Assembly (NCBI GenBank): GCA_021847625.1
Contig: JAJZQK010000014.1
Span: 1 to 17,307 of the forward strand
Reading direction: 5' to 3'
Source: Chloroflexota bacterium
GTDB taxonomy: Bacteria > Chloroflexota > FW602-bin22 > JAMCYS01
DNA length: 17,307 nt
Of this stretch, positions 3,157 through 13,858 are shown piece by piece (within the stretch, counting starts at the first letter, position 1; the number at the start of each line of letters is the position of its first letter). Position numbers and translations under genes: made by a program. The notes beneath the pieces were generated by a model. That model saw only the letters and a program-made list of their open reading frames with translations. It was not told the origin of the DNA and did not search any database.

Positions 3157-3747
3157 ATGGCGAAGGCTTCGCAGGTCCAGGCACACGTCGTGAGCAGCAC
3201 CCCCGGCAGGCTGCGCGTGCGGCTGCACGGCCTGGAGCGCGGCGAAAAGGCGGCGCAGAAGGTGCGCGAGGAGCTAGGCAAGCGTGGCGTGGAGCACGTG
3301 CGGACGAACGCTCGCACGGGTAGCATCGTCGTGCACTACGACAAGCGCCATCGCTCGCCGCACGACGTGCTAGCCGCGCTCGAGGATGCCGGCGTGATCA
3401 TCACGAAGACGGTCGAGGATTTGGTCGGTCTGCCCAGCGTCGGGCCCAGCATCACGGCCAGACAGGTGACAGGGTCGTTGGACAACCTGGACCGTCGGCT
3501 TTCCCGGCTCACCGGCAGGCGGGTGGACCTCAAGCTCCTCTTCCCGCTCAGCCTGGCCGCCCTCGGCCTACGCCAGACCCTCACCGTGGGCCTGGGCCTC
3601 AGTCAGGTCCCCGGCTATCTGCTGCTCTGGTACGCCTTCGATGCCTTCATGCGCTTCAACCGGCAGCCGCCGGGAGGCGAGCACCAGCGCCAGGCGAGGC
3701 CCGATGAGCGGCCGGCGCCGGAGCCTAAGAAGCCCAAGGCCGGCTAG
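3157..3747 (+). CDS. HMA-like domain membrane protein
   Basis: A 196-aa protein. Residues 1-90 look like a ferredoxin-fold heavy-metal-associated (HMA-like) domain: the Thr-Pro-Gly-Arg-Leu-Arg-Val-Arg-Leu strand, an amphipathic Lys-rich helix, and a Gly-Ser-Ile-Val-Val-His-Tyr strand. The metal-binding Cys-x-x-Cys of classical HMA domains is absent, so metal transport should not be assumed. Residues about 128-168 hold one or two hydrophobic segments (Phe-Pro-Leu-Ser-Leu-Ala-Ala-Leu and Gly-Tyr-Leu-Leu-Leu-Trp-Tyr-Ala). The tail is Pro/Arg/Lys-rich and probably cytoplasmic. ATG follows a GGAGGAGA ribosome site. The gene converges on the antiporter gene and their stop codons overlap. Similar proteins are found next to, or as N-terminal parts of, P-type ATPases. 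The role here is unknown. Confidence 0.7.
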   Translation: MAKASQVQAHVVSSTPGRLRVRLHGLERGEKAAQKVREELGKRGVEHVRTNARTGSIVVHYDKRHRSPHDVLAALEDAGVIITKTVEDLVGLPSVGPSITARQVTGSLDNLDRRLSRLTGRRVDLKLLFPLSLAALGLRQTLTVGLGLSQVPGYLLLWYAFDAFMRFNRQPPGGEHQRQARPDERPAPEPKKPKAG

Positions 3748-3753
3748 CCGGCC
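3738..3753. other. 16-bp palindrome holding two antiparallel stop codons
   Basis: GGCCGGCTAGCCGGCC is a perfect palindrome centred on CTAG. The TAG at 3745-3747 ends the HMA-like gene, and the complementary TAG (3746-3744) ends the antiporter gene, so the two genes overlap tail to tail by 4 bp. A fold-back without a loop is a poor terminator. Confidence 0.8.
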
Positions 3754-5324
3754 GCCTCGCTTTCGCTGGCCTTCTCGCGCGAGAGGTGGTGGTCCTCGCC
3801 CTCCAGGGCCTCGTCTACCTCGACAGTGAGCTTCTCGAACACCTCGGCCGAGATCAACCCGTCGCGCCTGTTGGCCATAAGCGCCCCCCGCTGGGCGCGC
3901 AGCAGCTCCTTGCGCGCGGCCTCCCGTTCCTCCTCGGCCAGGCGGGGGTTGGTATCCAGGAGGTCGTTGACCTGCTCCGTCAGCGAGTTCTCTTCGTCGC
4001 GCATGACGGAGGACATGTCCTCCCAAGTATAGGAGGACAGGAGACCCTCGCGATGCATCGTGTTCAGATGCCGCTCGCCCTCCCGCAGGGCGGCCAGGCG
4101 GGCGTGGAGCTCCTCGAAGCGCAGGGAATCGGCGCCGCGGCTGACGCCCACGCGCAGCCAACCCAACAGCGGCTGGATGGTCGTCCCTTGGACGAGGAGC
4201 GTGAAGAGGACGACGCCGAAGGCCATCACCTGCAACACCTCGCGGTCGGGGCCGAGGGCCAGCGGCAGGCTCAGGGCAAGGGCGAGGCTCACCGCCCCCC
4301 GCAGCCCGCTCCAGGCCAGGACGTTCTGCCAGCGGAAGGGGATCGGTTCGGAAAAGCGGTTGGCCAAGAGCCCGAGCCCGTACACCACGACGACCCGGCC
4401 GACGAGGACGGCGACCACTGCCCAGAATATCGGCTGCCAGGCCTCGGCGAGGGCCCGCACGTTCACGCGCAGGCCAATCAGCAGGAAGACGAGCGAGTTG
4501 GCGAGGAAGGCCACGTACTCCCAGAAGTTGAACAAGACGATGCGCGTGGTCGGGCTCATCCCCGAGGGGCCAATGTTGCCGTTGATCAGGCCGGCGGCGA
4601 CGACGGCCAGCACGCCGCTAACCTGCAGCCGCTCGGCCAGCAGGTAGGTGCCAAAGGCGAGCACCGTCGTGAGGGTGGTCTCGATGAGGTAATCGTCCAC
4701 CCGCGCGATCACCTGCGACACGAGCCAGCCGAAGAAGAGGCCGATGAGGATGCCCCCCGCCGCCACGCGCGCGAAGTCGAGGGCTCCTGCCGCCAGGTCC
4801 AGCCGGTCCGTGAGCGCGCTCACCAGCATCAGGTTGAAGATCACGATGGCGGTGCCGTCGTTGAGCAGGCTCTCGCCCTCGACGAGGAGGCCAAGTCGGT
4901 TGGGCACTCCCAGCGAGCGGAACACCGCCACTACCGCCACTGGATCGGTGGCCGCGATCAAGGCTCCGAACACCAGGGCCAGCGGCAGCGACAGCGAGGT
5001 CGTGACCGAGACGAGGCTGCCCACGATGGACGTCGTGAGGATGACCCCCGGCACGGCGAGCAAGAGAATGCCCACCAGATCGTGGCGGAGCTCCGAGATG
5101 TTGATGTGGAACGCCGCTTGGAATACGAGCGGCGGCAGGAACAGGGCGAGGATCAGCTCGGGCGTCATCTCCAGGCCGATCGGCTGGCTGGTGGTGATGA
5201 CGAGGCCGACGACGACCAGGGCCACGGTGTAGGGAATGCGGAAGCGACGCACGGCCATCGCCACGATCGCCACTACGAGCAGCAGCTCGATGATGATCGT
5301 TTCGGCCTGCAGGAACTCTTCCAT
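3744..5324 (-). CDS. Na+/H+ antiporter, CPA1 (NhaP-like) family
   Basis: A 526-aa inner-membrane protein predicted to exchange cytoplasmic Na+ (or K+) for H+. About twelve hydrophobic segments fill residues 8-400. The family's key motifs are present: Ala-Thr-Asp-Pro-Val-Ala at 125-130 and Glu-Ser-Leu-Leu-Asn-Asp-Gly-Thr at 151-158, with the Asn155-Asp156 pair expected to bind the ion. A charged, helical cytoplasmic tail of about 125 residues follows, typical of NhaP-type regulation domains. ATG at 5324 sits right after AGGGAGGGG; an in-frame ATG 6 codons earlier has no comparable site, so I chose 5324. The role is probably pH and sodium homeostasis. The ion specificity cannot be read from the sequence. 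Confidence 0.92.
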   Translation of the reverse strand: MEEFLQAETIIIELLLVVAIVAMAVRRFRIPYTVALVVVGLVITTSQPIGLEMTPELILALFLPPLVFQAAFHINISELRHDLVGILLLAVPGVILTTSIVGSLVSVTTSLSLPLALVFGALIAATDPVAVVAVFRSLGVPNRLGLLVEGESLLNDGTAIVIFNLMLVSALTDRLDLAAGALDFARVAAGGILIGLFFGWLVSQVIARVDDYLIETTLTTVLAFGTYLLAERLQVSGVLAVVAAGLINGNIGPSGMSPTTRIVLFNFWEYVAFLANSLVFLLIGLRVNVRALAEAWQPIFWAVVAVLVGRVVVVYGLGLLANRFSEPIPFRWQNVLAWSGLRGAVSLALALSLPLALGPDREVLQVMAFGVVLFTLLVQGTTIQPLLGWLRVGVSRGADSLRFEELHARLAALREGERHLNTMHREGLLSSYTWEDMSSVMRDEENSLTEQVNDLLDTNPRLAEEEREAARKELLRAQRGALMANRRDGLISAEVFEKLTVEVDEALEGEDHHLSREKASESEAAG

Positions 5325-5411
5325 CGCCCCTCCCTGGTGCACCGCACCCGCCGAACGCCCCGGCGGGCCCGACCTCGCGGCAGGGTCCCCGGCAGGCGAA
5401 TTGCTTTTGCC

Positions 5412-8426: not shown

Positions 8427-8464
8427 AGCGATAGCCGGGCGCAAGCGCGCGCCCGGCTATCGCT
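8427..8464 (-). terminator. Strong terminator after the rhodanese gene
   Basis: A 16-bp perfect stem (8427-8442 with 8449-8464) encloses a 6-nt loop and is followed on the minus strand by TTTGGG. It begins 27 nt after the UGA at 8491-8493 and would end the SHOCT-PepSY-rhodanese transcript. Its placement directly after the long reading, not after the early UGAs, supports the extended rhodanese as the functional gene. Confidence 0.75.
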
Positions 8465-8490: not shown

Positions 8491-8865
8491 TCAGGCCGCC
8501 TTGAGCCGTTCCTCGGGCTCGTTACCCGCGAGGGGGTAGCCCGCCGACTGCCAGCCGTGGATGCCGCCGACCAGGGCCGCTACGTTGCCGTATTGTCGGT
8601 ACCGCTGCACGAACAGCGCCGCCCGGGCGCTGGATTCCTCGTGGTGTCAAGCTCAGTAGAATATGATCGGCTTGTCCCGCGGCAGCTCCTGCAGGCGGCG
8701 GGCCAGCTCCCCGATGGGGATCGAGACCGCGCCGGGGATGTGCGACTGCTCGTACGACTTGGCGCTGCGCACGTCGACGAAAAGCGCCGCCTGTCGCTCG
8801 TGCATACCCTTCGCCGTCCGCAGGTCGATCTTCGGCGCCGCGCTTAGGTCGAGTTGTCTGGGCAT
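8491..8865 (-). CDS. Rhodanese-domain selenoprotein with Sec-Ala-Sec active site (two in-frame UGA)
   Basis: Single-domain rhodanese, 124 aa when UGA codons at 8655-8653 and 8649-8647 are read as selenocysteine 71 and 73. The first half has the family pattern: Leu-Phe-Val-Asp-Val-Arg-Ser near 28-34, His-Ile-Pro-Gly-Ala-Val near 42-47, and Asp-Lys-Pro-Ile-Ile-Phe-Tyr just before the UGA. The frame continues unchanged after the UGAs into His-His-Glu-Glu-Ser-Ser-Ala-Arg-Ala-Ala, then Val-Gly-Gly-Ile-His-Gly-Trp and Ala-Gly-Tyr-Pro-Leu, all expected rhodanese C-terminal features. Relatives have Cys-Ala-Cys at 71-73; residue 71 is the catalytic position. A SECIS-like hairpin follows. ATG at 8865 follows GGGAGGGAG. 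The likely role is sulfur or selenium transfer, or thiol redox. It lies 107 nt after the PepSY-like gene and is closed by a terminator. Standard gene calling would give a 70-aa fragment or a pseudogene. Confidence 0.87.
8614..8632 (-). promoter_or_regulatory. Bacterial SECIS-like hairpin
   Basis: In the mRNA, CAGCGCC pairs with GGCGCUG (7 bp) around the apical loop CGGGC. After a UC bulge on the 5' side, GAA can pair with UUC to lengthen the stem. The loop starts 27 nt after the first UGA and 21 nt after the second, within the distance known for bacterial SECIS elements. A G lies in the first two loop positions, as SelB recognition usually needs. It is wholly inside coding sequence. This is a hand fold only. 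Confidence 0.7.
8647..8655 (-). other. Recoded UGA-GCU-UGA (Sec-Ala-Sec)
   Basis: The nine bases read UGA GCU UGA in the rhodanese frame. Both stops are UGA, none is UAA or UAG, and they fall exactly on the two positions where relatives carry cysteine. This is the direct sign of selenocysteine insertion. Confidence 0.85.
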
Positions 8866-8972
8866 TGTTACTCCCTCCCGCCGGTCGAGCTGCCCACGAG
8901 GTTGGTTTACCCTGCGGAGGCGCCGGACCTTCGGTCTGAGCCCGTAAAGTGCAAGTTGCGTTCCCGGTCGGT

Positions 8973-9773
8973 CTAACCTTCAATCTCCTGGATGAAGTCG
9001 CCGTGCCAGGAGTGGTACCAGACGTCGCCGGTGTAGCCGTTGACCGAGAGCATACCCGATATCTTGCCGTCCTTCAGCGTGTGCGCCGTGTAGTAACCGG
9101 GGAACTGGTCGGGCTCCTCCGTCGTCGAGCCGGGATAATAGCGGTCGAGGTACTCCTGGGCCTTCTGCGTGGCCTGGTCGGGGGTCACCGTCAGCGGGCC
9201 GGCGTTCGTGCCGTTGGGCTGGCCGTATCCCCAGCCTCCCATCATGCCGCCCCAGCCGCCCATGTGCCCGTACTTGGTGTTCCACATCATGTTCGGGCCT
9301 ATCTCCGGCGAGACGTAGCTGTTGCTCTTGTTCACCAGCACCTCGAAGGCGCCGATGCCGGTGCTGTTGTCCTTGACGATGGCGTAGAAGTTATACTGGA
9401 ACTCCATCACCTCGTCGACGGCCAGGTTGGGGTCGTTATAGCCGGCTACGTAGTTCTCCACCGCCTTCTTCGCGTCGTCGATGGAGATGGAGGCGCCCGT
9501 GGTGGGCGCCACGTTGCCCTGCGGCCCCCAGCCGCCCATCATGCCGGGCCCGCCGCCCCAGCGGCCACCCATCATGCCCGGGCCGTAGCCCGGCCCGCCC
9601 TGGGGGCTCGGGGTCCCATGGCCGTTGTTGCCCCACCAGGGGCAGGTCCAGCCCGACCACGGGGCGCCGTTGGGCGTCGGGGTCTGGGCGAAGGCCAACC
9701 CGGCCGCGCCGAGGCCGAGCACCAGGGCCACAATGACCCCGCCGACAAGTAGAACGCGTCGCCAACTACCCAT
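8973..9773 (-). CDS. Secreted Met/Gly-rich PepSY-like protein
   Basis: A 266-aa exported protein. Residues 1-29 form a signal peptide (Arg-Arg, long hydrophobic core, Ala-Phe-Ala cut site). Residues 30-92 are low complexity, with Trp/Gly and two Pro-Gly-Met-Met-Gly-Gly blocks at 65-70 and 76-81. A third Met-Gly patch (His-Met-Gly-Gly-Trp-Gly-Gly-Met-Met) is at 170-178. Between and after these lie two PepSY-like alpha/beta repeats: 95-155 (Ile-Asp-Asp-Ala-Lys-Lys-Ala then strands) and 194-262 (Pro-Asp-Gln-Ala-Thr-Gln-Lys-Ala then Gly-Met-Leu-Ser-Val-Asn-Gly-Tyr-Thr-Gly-Asp-Val). Methionine-rich patches with His in exported proteins commonly bind Cu(I) or Ag(I); here that is inference. ATG follows GAGGAGGT. 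It lies 48 nt after the SHOCT gene and is probably co-transcribed with it. Confidence 0.82.
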   Translation of the reverse strand: MGSWRRVLLVGGVIVALVLGLGAAGLAFAQTPTPNGAPWSGWTCPWWGNNGHGTPSPQGGPGYGPGMMGGRWGGGPGMMGGWGPQGNVAPTTGASISIDDAKKAVENYVAGYNDPNLAVDEVMEFQYNFYAIVKDNSTGIGAFEVLVNKSNSYVSPEIGPNMMWNTKYGHMGGWGGMMGGWGYGQPNGTNAGPLTVTPDQATQKAQEYLDRYYPGSTTEEPDQFPGYYTAHTLKDGKISGMLSVNGYTGDVWYHSWHGDFIQEIEG

Positions 9774-10296: not shown

Positions 10297-11478
10297 CTAG
10301 GGAGCAATGGGGAGGGCGAGGGTGAAGGTGGCGCCGCGGCCGGGGCCGGGGCTCTCGGCGCGGAGCGTGCCGCCCTGCGCCTCGGCGAGGTGCTTGGCGA
10401 TGGTGAGGCCGATGCCGCTGCCGCCGCCCGTGCGCGACCGCGAGCGGTCGACGCGGTAGAAGCGCTCGAAGATGTGGGGCAGGCTCTCGGCCGGGATGCC
10501 GACGCCGGTGTCCGCCACCGCGAACTCCACCAGGCCGCCGCGGCGCCGGGCGGCCAGGTCGACGCGCCCGCCGGCCGGCGTATAGCGCAGGGCGTTGCCG
10601 AGGAGGTTGACGAGCGCCTGCACCGTGCGGTCCTCGTCCGCCAGCACGGCGGGCAGGCCGTCGGCAGCGCCGACGGCCAGGGCGACCCCCTTCTCCGCGA
10701 ACTGGGGGTTGAGGCGCGCCCCCGCCATCTCCAGCAGGCGCGCGGCGGGCACGGGCCGCGGATGGAGGGCGATCTGGTGGGCCTCGGCCCGCGAGAGCTC
10801 CTGCAGGTCGTCCACCAGCCGCCGCAGGCGGCCGGCCTCGGTGTGCAGCAGGGCGAACGTCTCCGGCGTGGGCTCCACCACGCCGTCGATCAGCCCCTCG
10901 GCGTAGCCCTCTATCGTCGCCAGGGGTGTGCGCAGCTCGTGGGCCACGTCGCCGACGAGGGCCAGCCGGCGCCGCTCGGTCTCTTCCAGCGAGGCGGCCA
11001 TGGCGTTGAAGCTCTGCGCCAGGTCGCCGATCTCGTCGCTCGCGCTCGCGTCCACCCGTTCGGCGTAGTGGCCGGCGGCAATGCGATGGCTCGCCCCGAC
11101 TAACCGGCTCACGGGCTCGACGAGCCGCCGGGAGACGAACATGCTCACCACCATCGCCGCCAGGATCGACACCGCCGTACCGACGGCCAGGGAGTAGGTG
11201 ACGGCCTCTTGAAAGACCTGCGCCGTCGTGCTGTTCAAGGAGTCGGCCATGCCGGTCATCATGCCGCCGAGCCCGCCCGACCCCATCATGCCGCCCGGCC
11301 CCATCATCCCCTCCATCGCCCGTACCCAGAGCTGGTCGAAGAAGAGGGGCGCGATGAGGCTCATCGCCATTAAGAGCGTCGCCGCGCCCACGGCGATGAC
11401 GGCCAGTTGGGCGAGGAAGATCTTCGAGTGCAGGCGCAGGCCCTGAATCCCCAGCCGTTTGAACAACCAGGTGGTCAT
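10297..11478 (-). CDS. Sensor histidine kinase with Met-rich extracytoplasmic loop
   Basis: A 393-aa membrane histidine kinase. The order is: TM1 about 20-46; an extracytoplasmic loop 48-92; TM2 about 93-115; HAMP 116-168; HisKA with His180 in His-Glu-Leu-Arg-Thr-Pro; then HATPase with the N box (Asn-Leu-Leu-Gly-Asn-Ala-Leu-Arg-Tyr), G1 (Asp-Thr-Gly-Val-Gly-Ile), F box (Phe-Glu-Arg-Phe-Tyr-Arg) and G2 (Gly-Gly-Gly-Ser-Gly-Ile-Gly-Leu). The short loop is striking: residues 55-77 hold eight Met among Gly/Pro, like the patches of the nearby PepSY-like protein. Such loops suit Cu(I)/Ag(I) sensing, but this is inference. Its ATG overlaps the regulator's stop as ATGA, so the two are translated together. 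It phosphorylates the regulator encoded just upstream. Confidence 0.93.
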   Translation of the reverse strand: MTTWLFKRLGIQGLRLHSKIFLAQLAVIAVGAATLLMAMSLIAPLFFDQLWVRAMEGMMGPGGMMGSGGLGGMMTGMADSLNSTTAQVFQEAVTYSLAVGTAVSILAAMVVSMFVSRRLVEPVSRLVGASHRIAAGHYAERVDASASDEIGDLAQSFNAMAASLEETERRRLALVGDVAHELRTPLATIEGYAEGLIDGVVEPTPETFALLHTEAGRLRRLVDDLQELSRAEAHQIALHPRPVPAARLLEMAGARLNPQFAEKGVALAVGAADGLPAVLADEDRTVQALVNLLGNALRYTPAGGRVDLAARRRGGLVEFAVADTGVGIPAESLPHIFERFYRVDRSRSRTGGGSGIGLTIAKHLAEAQGGTLRAESPGPGRGATFTLALPIAP

Positions 11479-12173
11479 AGCGATTGCTCCACGAACCGGT
11501 AGCCCACCCCGCGCACCGTCTGGATCCAGCGCGGCTGGGCAGGGTTATCCTCGATCTTCTTGCGTAGGGAAGCGACGTGCACGTCCACGACGTGGTCGTC
11601 GCCGAAGTAGTCGTGGCCCCACACGCTCTCCAGCAGCTGGGCGCGGGTGAACACGCGGCCGGGCTGAGCGGCCAGAGTGGCGAGAAGGCTGAACTCCAAC
11701 GGCGTCAGGGACACCTCCTCGCCGTCGCGTCTTACCTCGTGCCGGTCGACGTCGACGGATAGGCCGGCAAAGGTGAGCGGTGTGCCCGCCGACGCCGGGC
11801 CCGCCCCACCCCTGGGCCGGCGCAGCATCGCCTTGATTCGTGCTACCAGTTCGCGCGGGGAGAAGGGCTTGGTCAGGTAGTCGTCGGCGCCGACGGAGAG
11901 GCCGACGATCTTGTCGATCTCCTCGGAGCGGGCCGTGAGCATTATGACGTAGGCATCCGACCACTGGCGCAGCTGGCGGCAGACCTCCACGCCGTCGACC
12001 TCCGGCAGCATCACGTCCAGTACCACGAGGTCGGGGTCCGCCTCGCGGATCGCCTGCAGAGCGGAGCGGCCGTCGCCGGCGGTGAGCACGGCGTACCCTT
12101 CGCGCTCCAGATAGCCTTTGACGAGGTTGACGAGGTTGACCTCGTCGTCCACGACGAGAACCTTTGTCGGCAA
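11475..12173 (-). CDS. OmpR/PhoB-family response regulator
   Basis: A 232-aa transcription factor. The receiver domain (1-118) has acidic residues Asp9-Asp10, the phosphorylation site Asp53 in Val-Leu-Asp-Val-Met-Leu-Pro, a Thr in Met-Leu-Thr-Ala-Arg, and Lys in Leu-Thr-Lys-Pro-Phe. A Gly/Pro-rich linker leads to a winged-helix DNA-binding domain (about 134-230) with Leu-Thr-Pro-Leu-Glu-Phe-Ser-Leu-Leu and the ending Val-Arg-Gly-Val-Gly-Tyr-Arg-Phe. The start is TTG at 12173: GGAGGT lies 9 nt upstream and the protein begins at the expected place before Lys-Val-Leu-Val-Val-Asp-Asp-Glu, with no ATG nearby. It is co-translated with the kinase. Likely targets are its own promoter and the SHOCT-PepSY-rhodanese group. 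Confidence 0.94.
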   Translation of the reverse strand: MPTKVLVVDDEVNLVNLVKGYLEREGYAVLTAGDGRSALQAIREADPDLVVLDVMLPEVDGVEVCRQLRQWSDAYVIMLTARSEEIDKIVGLSVGADDYLTKPFSPRELVARIKAMLRRPRGGAGPASAGTPLTFAGLSVDVDRHEVRRDGEEVSLTPLEFSLLATLAAQPGRVFTRAQLLESVWGHDYFGDDHVVDVHVASLRKKIEDNPAQPRWIQTVRGVGYRFVEQSL

Positions 12174-12464: not shown

Positions 12465-12499
12465 AGAAGCCGACCATCCACGAACGGTCGGCTTCTTTT
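12465..12499 (+). terminator. Intrinsic terminator (attenuator) in the leader of the peroxiredoxin-like gene
   Basis: AGAAGCCGACC (12465-12475) pairs perfectly with GGTCGGCTTCT (12486-12496) around a 10-nt loop and is followed by TTTT then GGTTCTCTTTT. It points the same way as the gene that starts 32 nt later. No gene ends just upstream on this strand, so it should act either as an attenuator or as the end of a small RNA. Confidence 0.75.
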
Positions 12500-12517
12500 G
12501 GTTCTCTTTTCCAGCCG

Positions 12518-12525
12518 AAGGAGGT
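12518..12525 (+). promoter_or_regulatory. Strong ribosome site deciding a GTG start
   Basis: AAGGAGGT lies 5 nt before GTG at 12531. The frame is open upstream to 12498, but that part overlaps the terminator T run, so GTG at 12531 is preferred. Confidence 0.75.
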
Positions 12526-12530
12526 ACTTC

Positions 12531-13148
12531 GTGAGAGCCGATATTGTCGTAGGCGCAGTGTTCCCCGACTACGAGCTGCCCGACCATACCAATACGCCGC
12601 GCAGGCTGTCGTTCCTGCAGGGGGACGACCCGATGGTCCTGATGCTGTCGCGCGGCTTCTACTGCGCCAAGGAGCGCCAGCAGCTGCACGACATGGTCCA
12701 GTTCTCCAAGCACTGTGCCGTCGGCTACACCCGCCTGGTCACGATCACCACGGACACCCTGGAGGAGGTGAACGATCTCCGCCAGGGGGTCGGCGCCGAC
12801 TGGACCTTCCTCTACGACGATATGCGCGTCGTCCAGCAGGACCTCGACATTCAGGAGTACACCGACCCCTACAACGACCCGATGATCCCCTATACGTTTG
12901 TGCTGGAGCCGGGCCTCAGGATCTTCAAGATCTATGAAGGCTACTGGTTCTGGGGGCGGCCGACGACGCACGAACTCCACCTCGACCTGCGCGAGATCAC
13001 CAGGCGCATCCGCCCGGACTGGAGGATCGATGTGCCGGAGCTGCGGGCCAAGTGGAACCGCGGCGAGCGCGACGGCTTCTTCCCCTACGACAAGTCCCTG
13101 GAACAGGCCTTCATCAGGGCGGCCAACGCGGTGGATCGCTTCGAGTAG
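12531..13148 (+). CDS. Peroxiredoxin-like (AhpC/TSA, thioredoxin-fold) protein
   Basis: A 205-aa soluble protein. The N-terminal Val-Gly-Ala-Val-Phe-Pro-Asp-Tyr-Glu-Leu-Pro-Asp-His (7-19) is the classic peroxiredoxin opening. Arg-Gly-Phe-Tyr-Cys45-Ala-Lys-Glu occupies the peroxidatic position, where relatives usually have Arg-Gly-x-Trp-Cys-Pro. A second Cys at 62 could be a resolving partner. The middle keeps the thioredoxin fold (Val-Thr-Ile-Thr-Thr-Asp; Thr-Phe-Val-Leu-Glu-Pro). The C-terminal 60 residues (Tyr-Trp-Phe-Trp-Gly-Arg-Pro then Arg-Arg-Ile-Arg-Pro-Asp-Trp) fit a less-studied redoxin subfamily. The probable role is reduction of hydroperoxides using thiols. Peroxidase activity is inferred, since the active site is not canonical. 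The intrinsic terminator ahead suggests regulated readthrough, and MsrB follows on the same strand. Confidence 0.82.
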   Translation: MRADIVVGAVFPDYELPDHTNTPRRLSFLQGDDPMVLMLSRGFYCAKERQQLHDMVQFSKHCAVGYTRLVTITTDTLEEVNDLRQGVGADWTFLYDDMRVVQQDLDIQEYTDPYNDPMIPYTFVLEPGLRIFKIYEGYWFWGRPTTHELHLDLREITRRIRPDWRIDVPELRAKWNRGERDGFFPYDKSLEQAFIRAANAVDRFE

Positions 13149-13163
13149 CAGGCCCCCGCCTGC
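13148..13163 (+). terminator. Small hairpin at the end of the peroxiredoxin-like gene
   Basis: GCAGGC-CCCC-GCCTGC starts on the last base of the stop codon. It has a 6-bp stem without a T run, so termination is uncertain. Confidence 0.3.
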
Positions 13164-13462
13164 CTCGGCCTGACCCGACCGCCGGCGGCGTCCCTCGCCC
13201 GCGACGTAGCGCGCGGCAAAGTGCCTTCCTGCTTGGCAAACGAGCGGTGGCTAGGCTCCCCTCCTGGTGTGGAAATTGCATCCGCATAGCCATAGAACGC
13301 GGTCGCGCGACCGGGCTGGACCAATACCAATTGCGGATCTGAGTGTCCTATTTCTCTCCGCGCTCCATGTGTAGGCGGGGGCCGACATGGGTCTGGACTG
13401 AAGGCAATTGGTGTTACGGTGCCTGCTGCCGGTCGCGCGTCGTCAATAGAGAGGAGTCGGGG
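13164..13462. other. Intergenic stretch before MsrB
   Basis: Contents: a perfect 14-bp palindrome CGGTCGCGCGACCG (13300-13313), and CCAATTGC near 13327 repeated in inverted form as GCAATTGG near 13403. The MsrB frame is open upstream to 13343, but those residues are Cys/Trp/Arg-rich and unlike the family. No gene or promoter stands out. Confidence 0.4.
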
Positions 13463-13858
13463 ATGAGGGAGAAAGTCCGCAAGAGCGATCAGGAGTGGCG
13501 GGAGCAGCTCACGCCCGAGCAGTACCGCGTGGCGCGCCAGGGCGGCACCGAGCCGCCCTTCGCCAACGAATACTACAACCTGAAGGAGAAGGGCATCTAC
13601 CATTGTGTTTGCTGCGGGCAGGACCTGTTCTCCTCGGAGGACAAGTTCGACTCCGGCACCGGTTGGCCTAGCTTCACGCGGCCGATTGCCGAGGATAGGA
13701 TCACCACCCGGCCGGATAACAGCCTGTTCATGCGGCGCACGGAGGTCCTGTGCAGCAGGTGCGACGCCCACCTGGGGCACGTCTTCGATGACGGCCCCCG
13801 GCCGACGGGCCTGCGCTACTGCCTGAACTCCGCCTCGCTGAAGTTCGAGAAGGGCTGA
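13463..13858 (+). CDS. msrB: Peptide methionine-(R)-S-oxide reductase MsrB
   Basis: A 131-aa enzyme that reduces the R-epimer of methionine sulfoxide in proteins. The zinc site is intact: Cys48-x-x-Cys51 and Cys97-x-x-Cys100. The catalytic Cys120 lies in Arg-Tyr-Cys-Leu-Asn-Ser-Ala-Ser. The substrate-site motifs Gly-Trp-Pro-Ser-Phe (67-71) and His-Leu-Gly-His-Val-Phe (103-108) are present. Residue 66, where many MsrBs place the resolving Cys (Ser-Gly-Cys-Gly-Trp), is Thr, so thioredoxin recycling would need another thiol or direct reduction. ATG at 13463 follows GAGGAG and matches the usual family start. It is cytoplasmic. It lies 314 bp after the peroxiredoxin-like gene on the same strand, probably with its own promoter, in an oxidative-repair neighbourhood. 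Confidence 0.96.

Follow-up and report, generated by a model that had tools for sequence, protein, structure and literature searches.

A predicted rhodanese selenoprotein with a Sec-Ala-Sec active site in Chloroflexota

In the SelL family, which is thioredoxin/peroxiredoxin-like, two selenocysteine (Sec, U) residues share one active site in a UxxU diselenide redox motif. Among rhodaneses, a 2026 inventory distinguishes in its Table 1 five selenoprotein forms, namely UxxS, UxxG (twice), CxU and UxxxxU, and that table lists no UxU form (PMC13188914). The CxU form, called 'Rhodanese-like domain-containing protein form 3' in the inventory, is the NCBIfam family NF041203 (rhodanese_LYCAU), and the UxxxxU form is TsoB (NF045694), a rhodanese/DsbD fusion-like protein. 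Here we describe a gene on the minus strand of a 17,307-nt stretch of a Chloroflexota genome (contig JAJZQK010000014.1; this whole stretch is referred to as the window) that is, judging from its sequence, a UxU variant of the CxU rhodanese and new with respect to the 2026 inventory table. In all likelihood it encodes a single-domain rhodanese of 124 residues in which both active-site chalcogen residues would be Sec (U71-A-U73), made via SelA/SelB/SelC/SelD.

The window gene has in common with NF041203 its fold, the predicted Sec in second position and the register of a downstream hairpin, and differs from it in that the catalytic Cys of NF041203 is a UGA in the window and the window protein scores under the family cut-off. 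C-x-C rhodaneses (P0004, P0019-P0028) have the same loop with Cys at both columns, so that Cys replaces both Sec. TsoB is, like the predicted product, a rhodanese with two Sec according to Table 1 of the inventory, but it is described by a 572-position model and has another Sec spacing. The UxxU Prx-like proteins from the GOS survey (PMC2398784) also carry two Sec per active site, but these redox selenoproteins have two residues instead of one between the Secs and are not rhodaneses. With this gene, the rhodanese family would gain an active site with two Sec. No UxU rhodanese appears in the consulted passages of two earlier surveys (PMC2398784, PMC1088965) and a 2022 review (PMC9312934), and the word 'rhodanese' is absent from the main text of the deep-Sep paper (PMC12013277). 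A literature search for UxU selenocysteine, with most subscription papers and all bioRxiv preprints outside its scope, returned nothing that, judged by title and start of abstract, concerns prokaryotic selenoproteins. The initial annotation of this DNA, made from the letters alone, likewise took rhodanese selenoproteins as known and knew of no UxU form, in agreement with the inventory table.

Reading frame, fold and family

The features that define the gene are the following.

8491 to 8865, minus strand: full rhodanese frame, 124 residues (open reading frame (ORF) reading, Pfam PF00581, AlphaFold2)
8653 to 8655, minus strand: UGA-1, codon 71, at the rhodanese catalytic Cys position and the start of the active-site loop after strand 67-70 (Cys in CxU/CxC relatives; UGA in 18 other genomes)
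8647 to 8649, minus strand: UGA-2, codon 73, at the Sec position of CxU rhodaneses (NF041203) and the second Cys of CxC relatives (alignment of relatives)

The frame runs over 124 codons from the ATG at 8865-8863 to a terminal TGA at 8493-8491. Translation table 11 halts it at the TGA at 8655-8653, after Tyr70, which yields a 70-aa ORF (8653-8865). Codons 71 to 73 read TGA-GCT-TGA (U-A-U) and 51 sense codons then precede the terminal TGA, giving the read-through product FY-U-A-U-HHEESSARAALFVQ...VGGIHGWQSAGYPL. There is no TAA or TAG in the 124-codon frame and a frameshift is not needed. The initial annotation had described exactly this layout, a UGA after Tyr70 within UGA-GCU-UGA, 51 further rhodanese codons and no other stop or frameshift, and frame reading confirmed it up to the terminal TGA, as did the Pfam match given below for the rhodanese character of the codons. 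Its coordinates were correct as well; the strand, which it left unstated, is minus.

The Pfam Rhodanese family (PF00581) matched residues 18-107 of the read-through protein (E 3.2e-19, 69.7 bits against a cut-off of 22.2), so rhodanese homology extends on both sides of the UGAs. An AlphaFold2 model with C in place of U (mean predicted local distance difference test score, pLDDT, 89.9; predicted template modelling score, pTM, 0.83), together with comparisons to Protein Data Bank (PDB) structures, gave a rhodanese fold with the nucleophile position at the start of the active-site loop. In this model codon 71 comes directly after strand 67-70; it is a TGA in the column of the rhodanese catalytic Cys, and Sec is predicted there. 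The best NCBIfam match was NF041203 (71.3 bits, 5.4e-20), under the family cut-off of 115. As to the features of that family, the UGA at the second position of C-x-U (codon 73) is present and the first-position Cys is replaced by a UGA, so the window protein resembles NF041203 and is not filed as a member. Against the TsoB model the single-domain, 124-aa protein reached 30 bits, compared with a cut-off of 805.

Relatives with Cys or UGA at the two positions

A protein search with the window protein returned 14 proteins, the window's own 70-aa stub included. One of them, P0003, is a 70-aa protein, recorded as from a Chloroflexota metagenome-assembled genome, that is 89% identical, ends at Tyr70 too and is known from the protein alone. 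Seven of the 14 (P0005, P0006, P0008, P0009, P0011, P0013 and P0014) end exactly at Y-C-T, and the rest comprise P0004, with Y-C-A-C, and four proteins with another loop or ending. When P0004 served as the query, 18 proteins (P0004 included) were obtained, of which 11 have Y-C-x-C, six end after Y-C-x and one has an ordinary rhodanese loop. The residues at both columns put UGA-1 on the catalytic Cys column and UGA-2 on the second Cys, which bears out the earlier proposal that the two UGAs coincide with the Cys-x-Cys of relatives. Nine proteins came from a search with the 70-aa stub: besides that of the window itself and P0003, these were seven with a Y-C-T end (P0006, P0008, P0011, P0014, P0016-P0018). 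Judged from the proteins alone, P0005, P0006, P0008, P0009, P0011, P0013, P0014, P0016-P0018, P0029-P0033 and P0035, which stop after Y-C-x, appear to stem from CxU selenoprotein genes whose annotation was cut short. UxU genes would be liable to the same short-stub annotation in databases, and P0003 appears to be an example.

At the level of genomes, all 44 loci from a scan of genome contigs, to which the gene of P0003 does not belong, were translated and 11 of these read Y-C-x-UGA and then continue as rhodanese (nine in Chloroflexota, one acidobacterial and one deltaproteobacterial); these are the known CxU form NF041203. Two rhodaneses with Y-C-x-x-x-x-UGA were also seen, near 8001-8273 of L036 (Desulfopila sp. 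IMCC35006, YCGGSTU) and near 932-1201 of L072 (G090, YCTGATU), and their CxxxxU arrangement is akin to the UxxxxU of TsoB.

The read-through protein was further searched against 400 genomes of the phylum of G001 (Chloroflexota), 252 of which matched; 30 listed loci and three further places were translated, and UxU was found among them in six genomes (G098, G114, G138, G162, G218 and G279). A first pattern, consisting of Y-UGA-x-UGA and part of the downstream signature, was run on the class of G098 and matched 6 of 29 genomes: five of the six known UxU genomes and G250, which was read as UxU. A second pattern matched 6/393 genomes in the class of G279 and 6/396 in the class of G001, and all 12 of these loci read as rhodanese UxU, with G279 recurring among them; a reversed-pattern control gave 0 among the matches listed. 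Altogether UxU is present in at least 18 other Chloroflexota genomes of three classes, and most of these genes are far from the window gene in sequence. Since the patterns fix part of the 5' arm of the hairpin described below, and the second pattern also part of its loop, the numbers of UxU genes are minimum values and the sampling is skewed accordingly. By pattern, no UxU was found in 162 genomes of the class to which the acidobacterial CxU genome G008 belongs or in three genomes of the class of G009, where a pattern miss is no proof of absence, and the 12 pattern matches in viral contigs included no relative.

In a tree of 47 rows with the two trait positions masked, in which 12 of the 19 UxU rows had come from the patterns alone, UxU requires 5 or more changes at the first position (shuffled mean 14.9), with starred branches forcing 2. 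On these counts, the first Cys has probably been replaced, or such a replacement undone, on more than one occasion. L048, a CxU gene, is the closest branch partner of the window gene (support 92/77, unstarred). For the number of UxU origins or the direction of change the tree is too weak.

A SECIS-like hairpin and the selenocysteine machinery

Downstream of the UGA pair, comparative pairing, folding and published rules point to a candidate bacterial selenocysteine insertion sequence (SECIS) element.

8614 to 8632, minus strand: predicted bacterial SECIS hairpin, 7-bp stem, 5-nt loop CGGGC (8621-8625)

Its loop lies 21 nt from UGA-2 and 27 nt from UGA-1. The rules given for bacterial SECIS elements in PMC13188914 are a loop of 3-9 nt, a stem of 4-16 bp, a G in the first two loop positions, a spacing of 16-37 nt between UGA and loop and a minimum free energy (MFE) of <= -7.5, and the window hairpin fits these for both UGAs, with G at loop position 2 and -13.1 kcal/mol. 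Conservation was assessed on five stem pairs, with the 5' arm at 17-21 nt after UGA-2, using synonymous-codon shuffles that preserve the protein as control. Across 31 different genes of Sec form, UxU and CxU together, the core pairs are formed in 155 of 155 cases, compared with shuffle means of 96-101 (standard deviation about 4.6, maximum 114). The 19 UxU genes (the window gene and 18 others) form 95/95 (shuffle means 58-62, maximum 74), and the CxU genes, which have the hairpin in the same register, 115/115 (shuffle means 71-76, maximum 89). CxC genes form 3 of 10 core pairs, a figure from two loci only (L014 and L035), which are without the hairpin. Compensatory changes were seen at pair 18-30 in five UxU and two CxU genes, at 20-28 in one UxU gene, and at 19-29 and 17-31 in one CxU gene each. 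Eleven of the 19 UxU genes had been found by the second pattern and one by the first, and no pattern fixes the 3' arm (27-33).

Both UGAs have the loop downstream within the published 16-37 nt, for which reason one hairpin 3' of UGA-2 could serve the two codons. By eye, no second consistent hairpin was found in the folds of UxU genes, which cover only 39 nt after UGA-2, so that a single element for both codons is something we infer.

The machinery for Sec was looked for in the genomes of relatives, with the UxU genomes G414, G420, G426, G435 and G464 outside all these tests. A selA match above cut-off is present in 10/10 genomes with CxU or CxC loci (nine CxU, one CxC) and in 12 of 13 UxU genomes (6/7 and 6/6). 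Five of six UxU genomes have selB above cut-off and five of six a tRNA-Sec above the gathering score. All seven UxU genomes searched for selD contain it, six with one in-frame TGA. In G098 two selD matches were over the cut-off (C98:8769-9701 and C51:851-1771), with one in-frame TGA each.

Alternative explanations, possible function and genomic surroundings

The predicted Sec-Ala-Sec active site, the central claim of the initial annotation, is supported by the Cys columns, the UxU and CxU relatives, the covarying hairpin and the Sec machinery found in most of the relatives' genomes tested. The position of the two UGAs at the Cys columns of relatives, together with their recurrence with a conserved RNA signal in other Chloroflexota, very probably indicates a double-Sec enzyme. 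Several observations weigh against this. Taken alone, the window hairpin is unexceptional for so GC-rich a region: 13 of 200 shuffled sequences give an equally good fold (z -1.6), and for a longer stretch z is 0.07. Synonymous shuffles produce its full set of 7 pairs in 2-4% of cases, and the loop sequence CGGGC differs from the CGTGC of 14 of the 19 UxU genes. It is because of the weak single-sequence z that the comparative pairing test was used instead. In the stub search P0003 was the only protein ending at Tyr besides the window's own. G279 is a UxU genome with no selA match, while in G138 the selB matches are fragments close to the ends of contigs and no tRNA-Sec reaches the gathering score; both assemblies are perhaps incomplete. 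Moreover, selA occurs in 315 of the 396 genomes of the class of G001, so that co-occurrence there says little; the SelA co-occurrence statistic was therefore dropped and the machinery serves as a consistency check and not as proof. Recoding of one UGA in E. coli is given as 30-40% efficient (PMC4513850), at which rate two in succession would be costly. Finally, the reaction chemistry and the sharing of one SECIS are matters that we infer.

Other readings of the frame have to explain the same observations. One alternative has Sec at UGA-2 alone, as in CxU, and takes UGA-1 for a TGC or TGT altered by point mutation or by an error of assembly. This would require a single base change, and CxU is common (11 of the 44 loci, plus many loci of the 400-genome search), but with UxU in 18 other genomes of three classes, mostly distant in sequence from the window, and with P0003 stopping at the same residue as the window frame, we regard this as very improbable. 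We give equally little credence to a decayed gene or a truncated 70-residue product with the downstream part as a remnant: the table 11 ORF is indeed 70 aa and the long form requires two recoding events, but the 51 further codons retain rhodanese homology with no TAA, TAG or frameshift, the pairs of the 3' hairpin are conserved beyond what the protein requires, the layout is kept in relatives, and a 70-aa form would be without the catalytic residue. In some bacteria an in-frame TGA is a sense codon, and the UGAs could in principle be read as Trp or another ordinary residue under a variant genetic code; however, TGA ends five of the 15 window genes checked and the rhodanese frame itself, relatives have Cys and not Trp at both columns, and the SECIS-like hairpin is present, which leaves this reading a negligible probability. 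A further proposal accepts the UxU protein and sees in its Sec pair a soft-metal selenolate site (copper, mercury or similar) under a metal-sensing two-component system instead of a sulfur-transfer centre. A Met-rich upstream neighbour and a Met-rich stretch in a histidine kinase, both seen by eye in the translations, would fit, as would a heavy-metal-associated domain protein in the window and the recurrence of the neighbour type beside the UxU gene of G763, but the neighbourhoods are mostly unconserved (universal stress protein (Usp) in three loci; FTR1, DegV, MFS and others elsewhere) and we consider this function unlikely.

For the double-Sec enzyme, then, the following scheme may be put forward. 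By motif the protein would be a C-x-U rhodanese with the catalytic Cys also replaced, and the bacterial SelA/SelB/SelC/SelD system would insert Sec at both UGAs, presumably directed by the one SECIS hairpin. Sec71, at the place of the catalytic Cys, might be loaded by a donor with sulfur (or selenium) to give a selenenylsulfide, which Sec73 could resolve with release of sulfide; the resulting Se-Se bond would be reduced by a thiol or thioredoxin. A Se-Se or Se-S pair might then handle persulfide, which would make the protein a persulfide reductase or transferase and not a thiosulfate:cyanide transferase of the classical kind. More tentatively, and with somewhat more doubt than confidence, we suggest a rhodanese subfamily, unlisted so far and spread over several Chloroflexota classes, that combines a Sec-x-Sec diselenide/selenenylsulfide switch for persulfide (or perselenide) turnover with a single SECIS directing two Sec insertions six nt apart in one ribosome pass. 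The natural CxC, CxU and UxU versions of one small enzyme form a series for asking what each Cys-to-Sec step brings, and the gene offers a compact way to ask if a single bacterial SECIS is enough for two UGAs at a distance of six nucleotides.

The remaining features around the gene are listed below.

8871 to 8879, minus strand: probable ribosome binding site GGGAGGGAG, 5' of the ATG at 8865 (direct sequence reading)
8427 to 8464, minus strand: strong hairpin 3' of the terminal TGA, 16 bp, 6-nt loop; possible terminator without a proper U-run (folding)
8973 to 9773, minus strand: upstream neighbour, Met/Gly-rich protein, probably secreted, without Pfam or NCBIfam match (profile searches, translation)
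10297 to 12173, minus strand: histidine kinase (10297-11478) and response regulator (11475-12173), possible regulators (upstream, same strand)

The initial annotation placed a strong terminator after the long form. A strong hairpin does stand there (fold z -3.4), but directly after its stem comes UUGGG in place of a proper U-run, and a terminator scan of the window did not have it among its listed terminators.

The upstream neighbours on the same strand are the Met-rich protein, a SHOCT protein, the histidine kinase and the response regulator. A homologue of the Met-rich protein (47% over 179 aa by tblastn; L115, 2047-2556) lies just upstream of the UxU rhodanese of G763 on the same strand, and a homologue of the response regulator (43% over 210 aa) directly follows the UxU rhodanese of G1034 (L113). 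The Met-rich stretch of the kinase, MEGMMGPGGMMGSGGLGGMMTGM, precedes its HAMP domain and is suggestive of metal sensing. Other UxU neighbourhoods are varied, three related loci having a Usp gene beside the rhodanese and others FTR1, DegV, MFS and further families; among 20 neighbour ORFs scanned, Amidohydro_2 was the only family to recur, in two loci. With such varied surroundings, gene context does not fix the function.

Elsewhere in the window, an AhpC/TSA-like protein adjoins an MsrB gene (12498-13858, plus strand) and has a weak match to the SelL-related NF040769 (21.5 bits, against 120), so that the window contains several thiol-redox genes. A cyclic di-AMP riboswitch (RF00379, 2761-2898, minus strand, 91.2 bits) lies directly upstream of a Usp gene (2196-2774), and a Na+/H+ exchanger gene (3744-5342) is found near this riboswitch.
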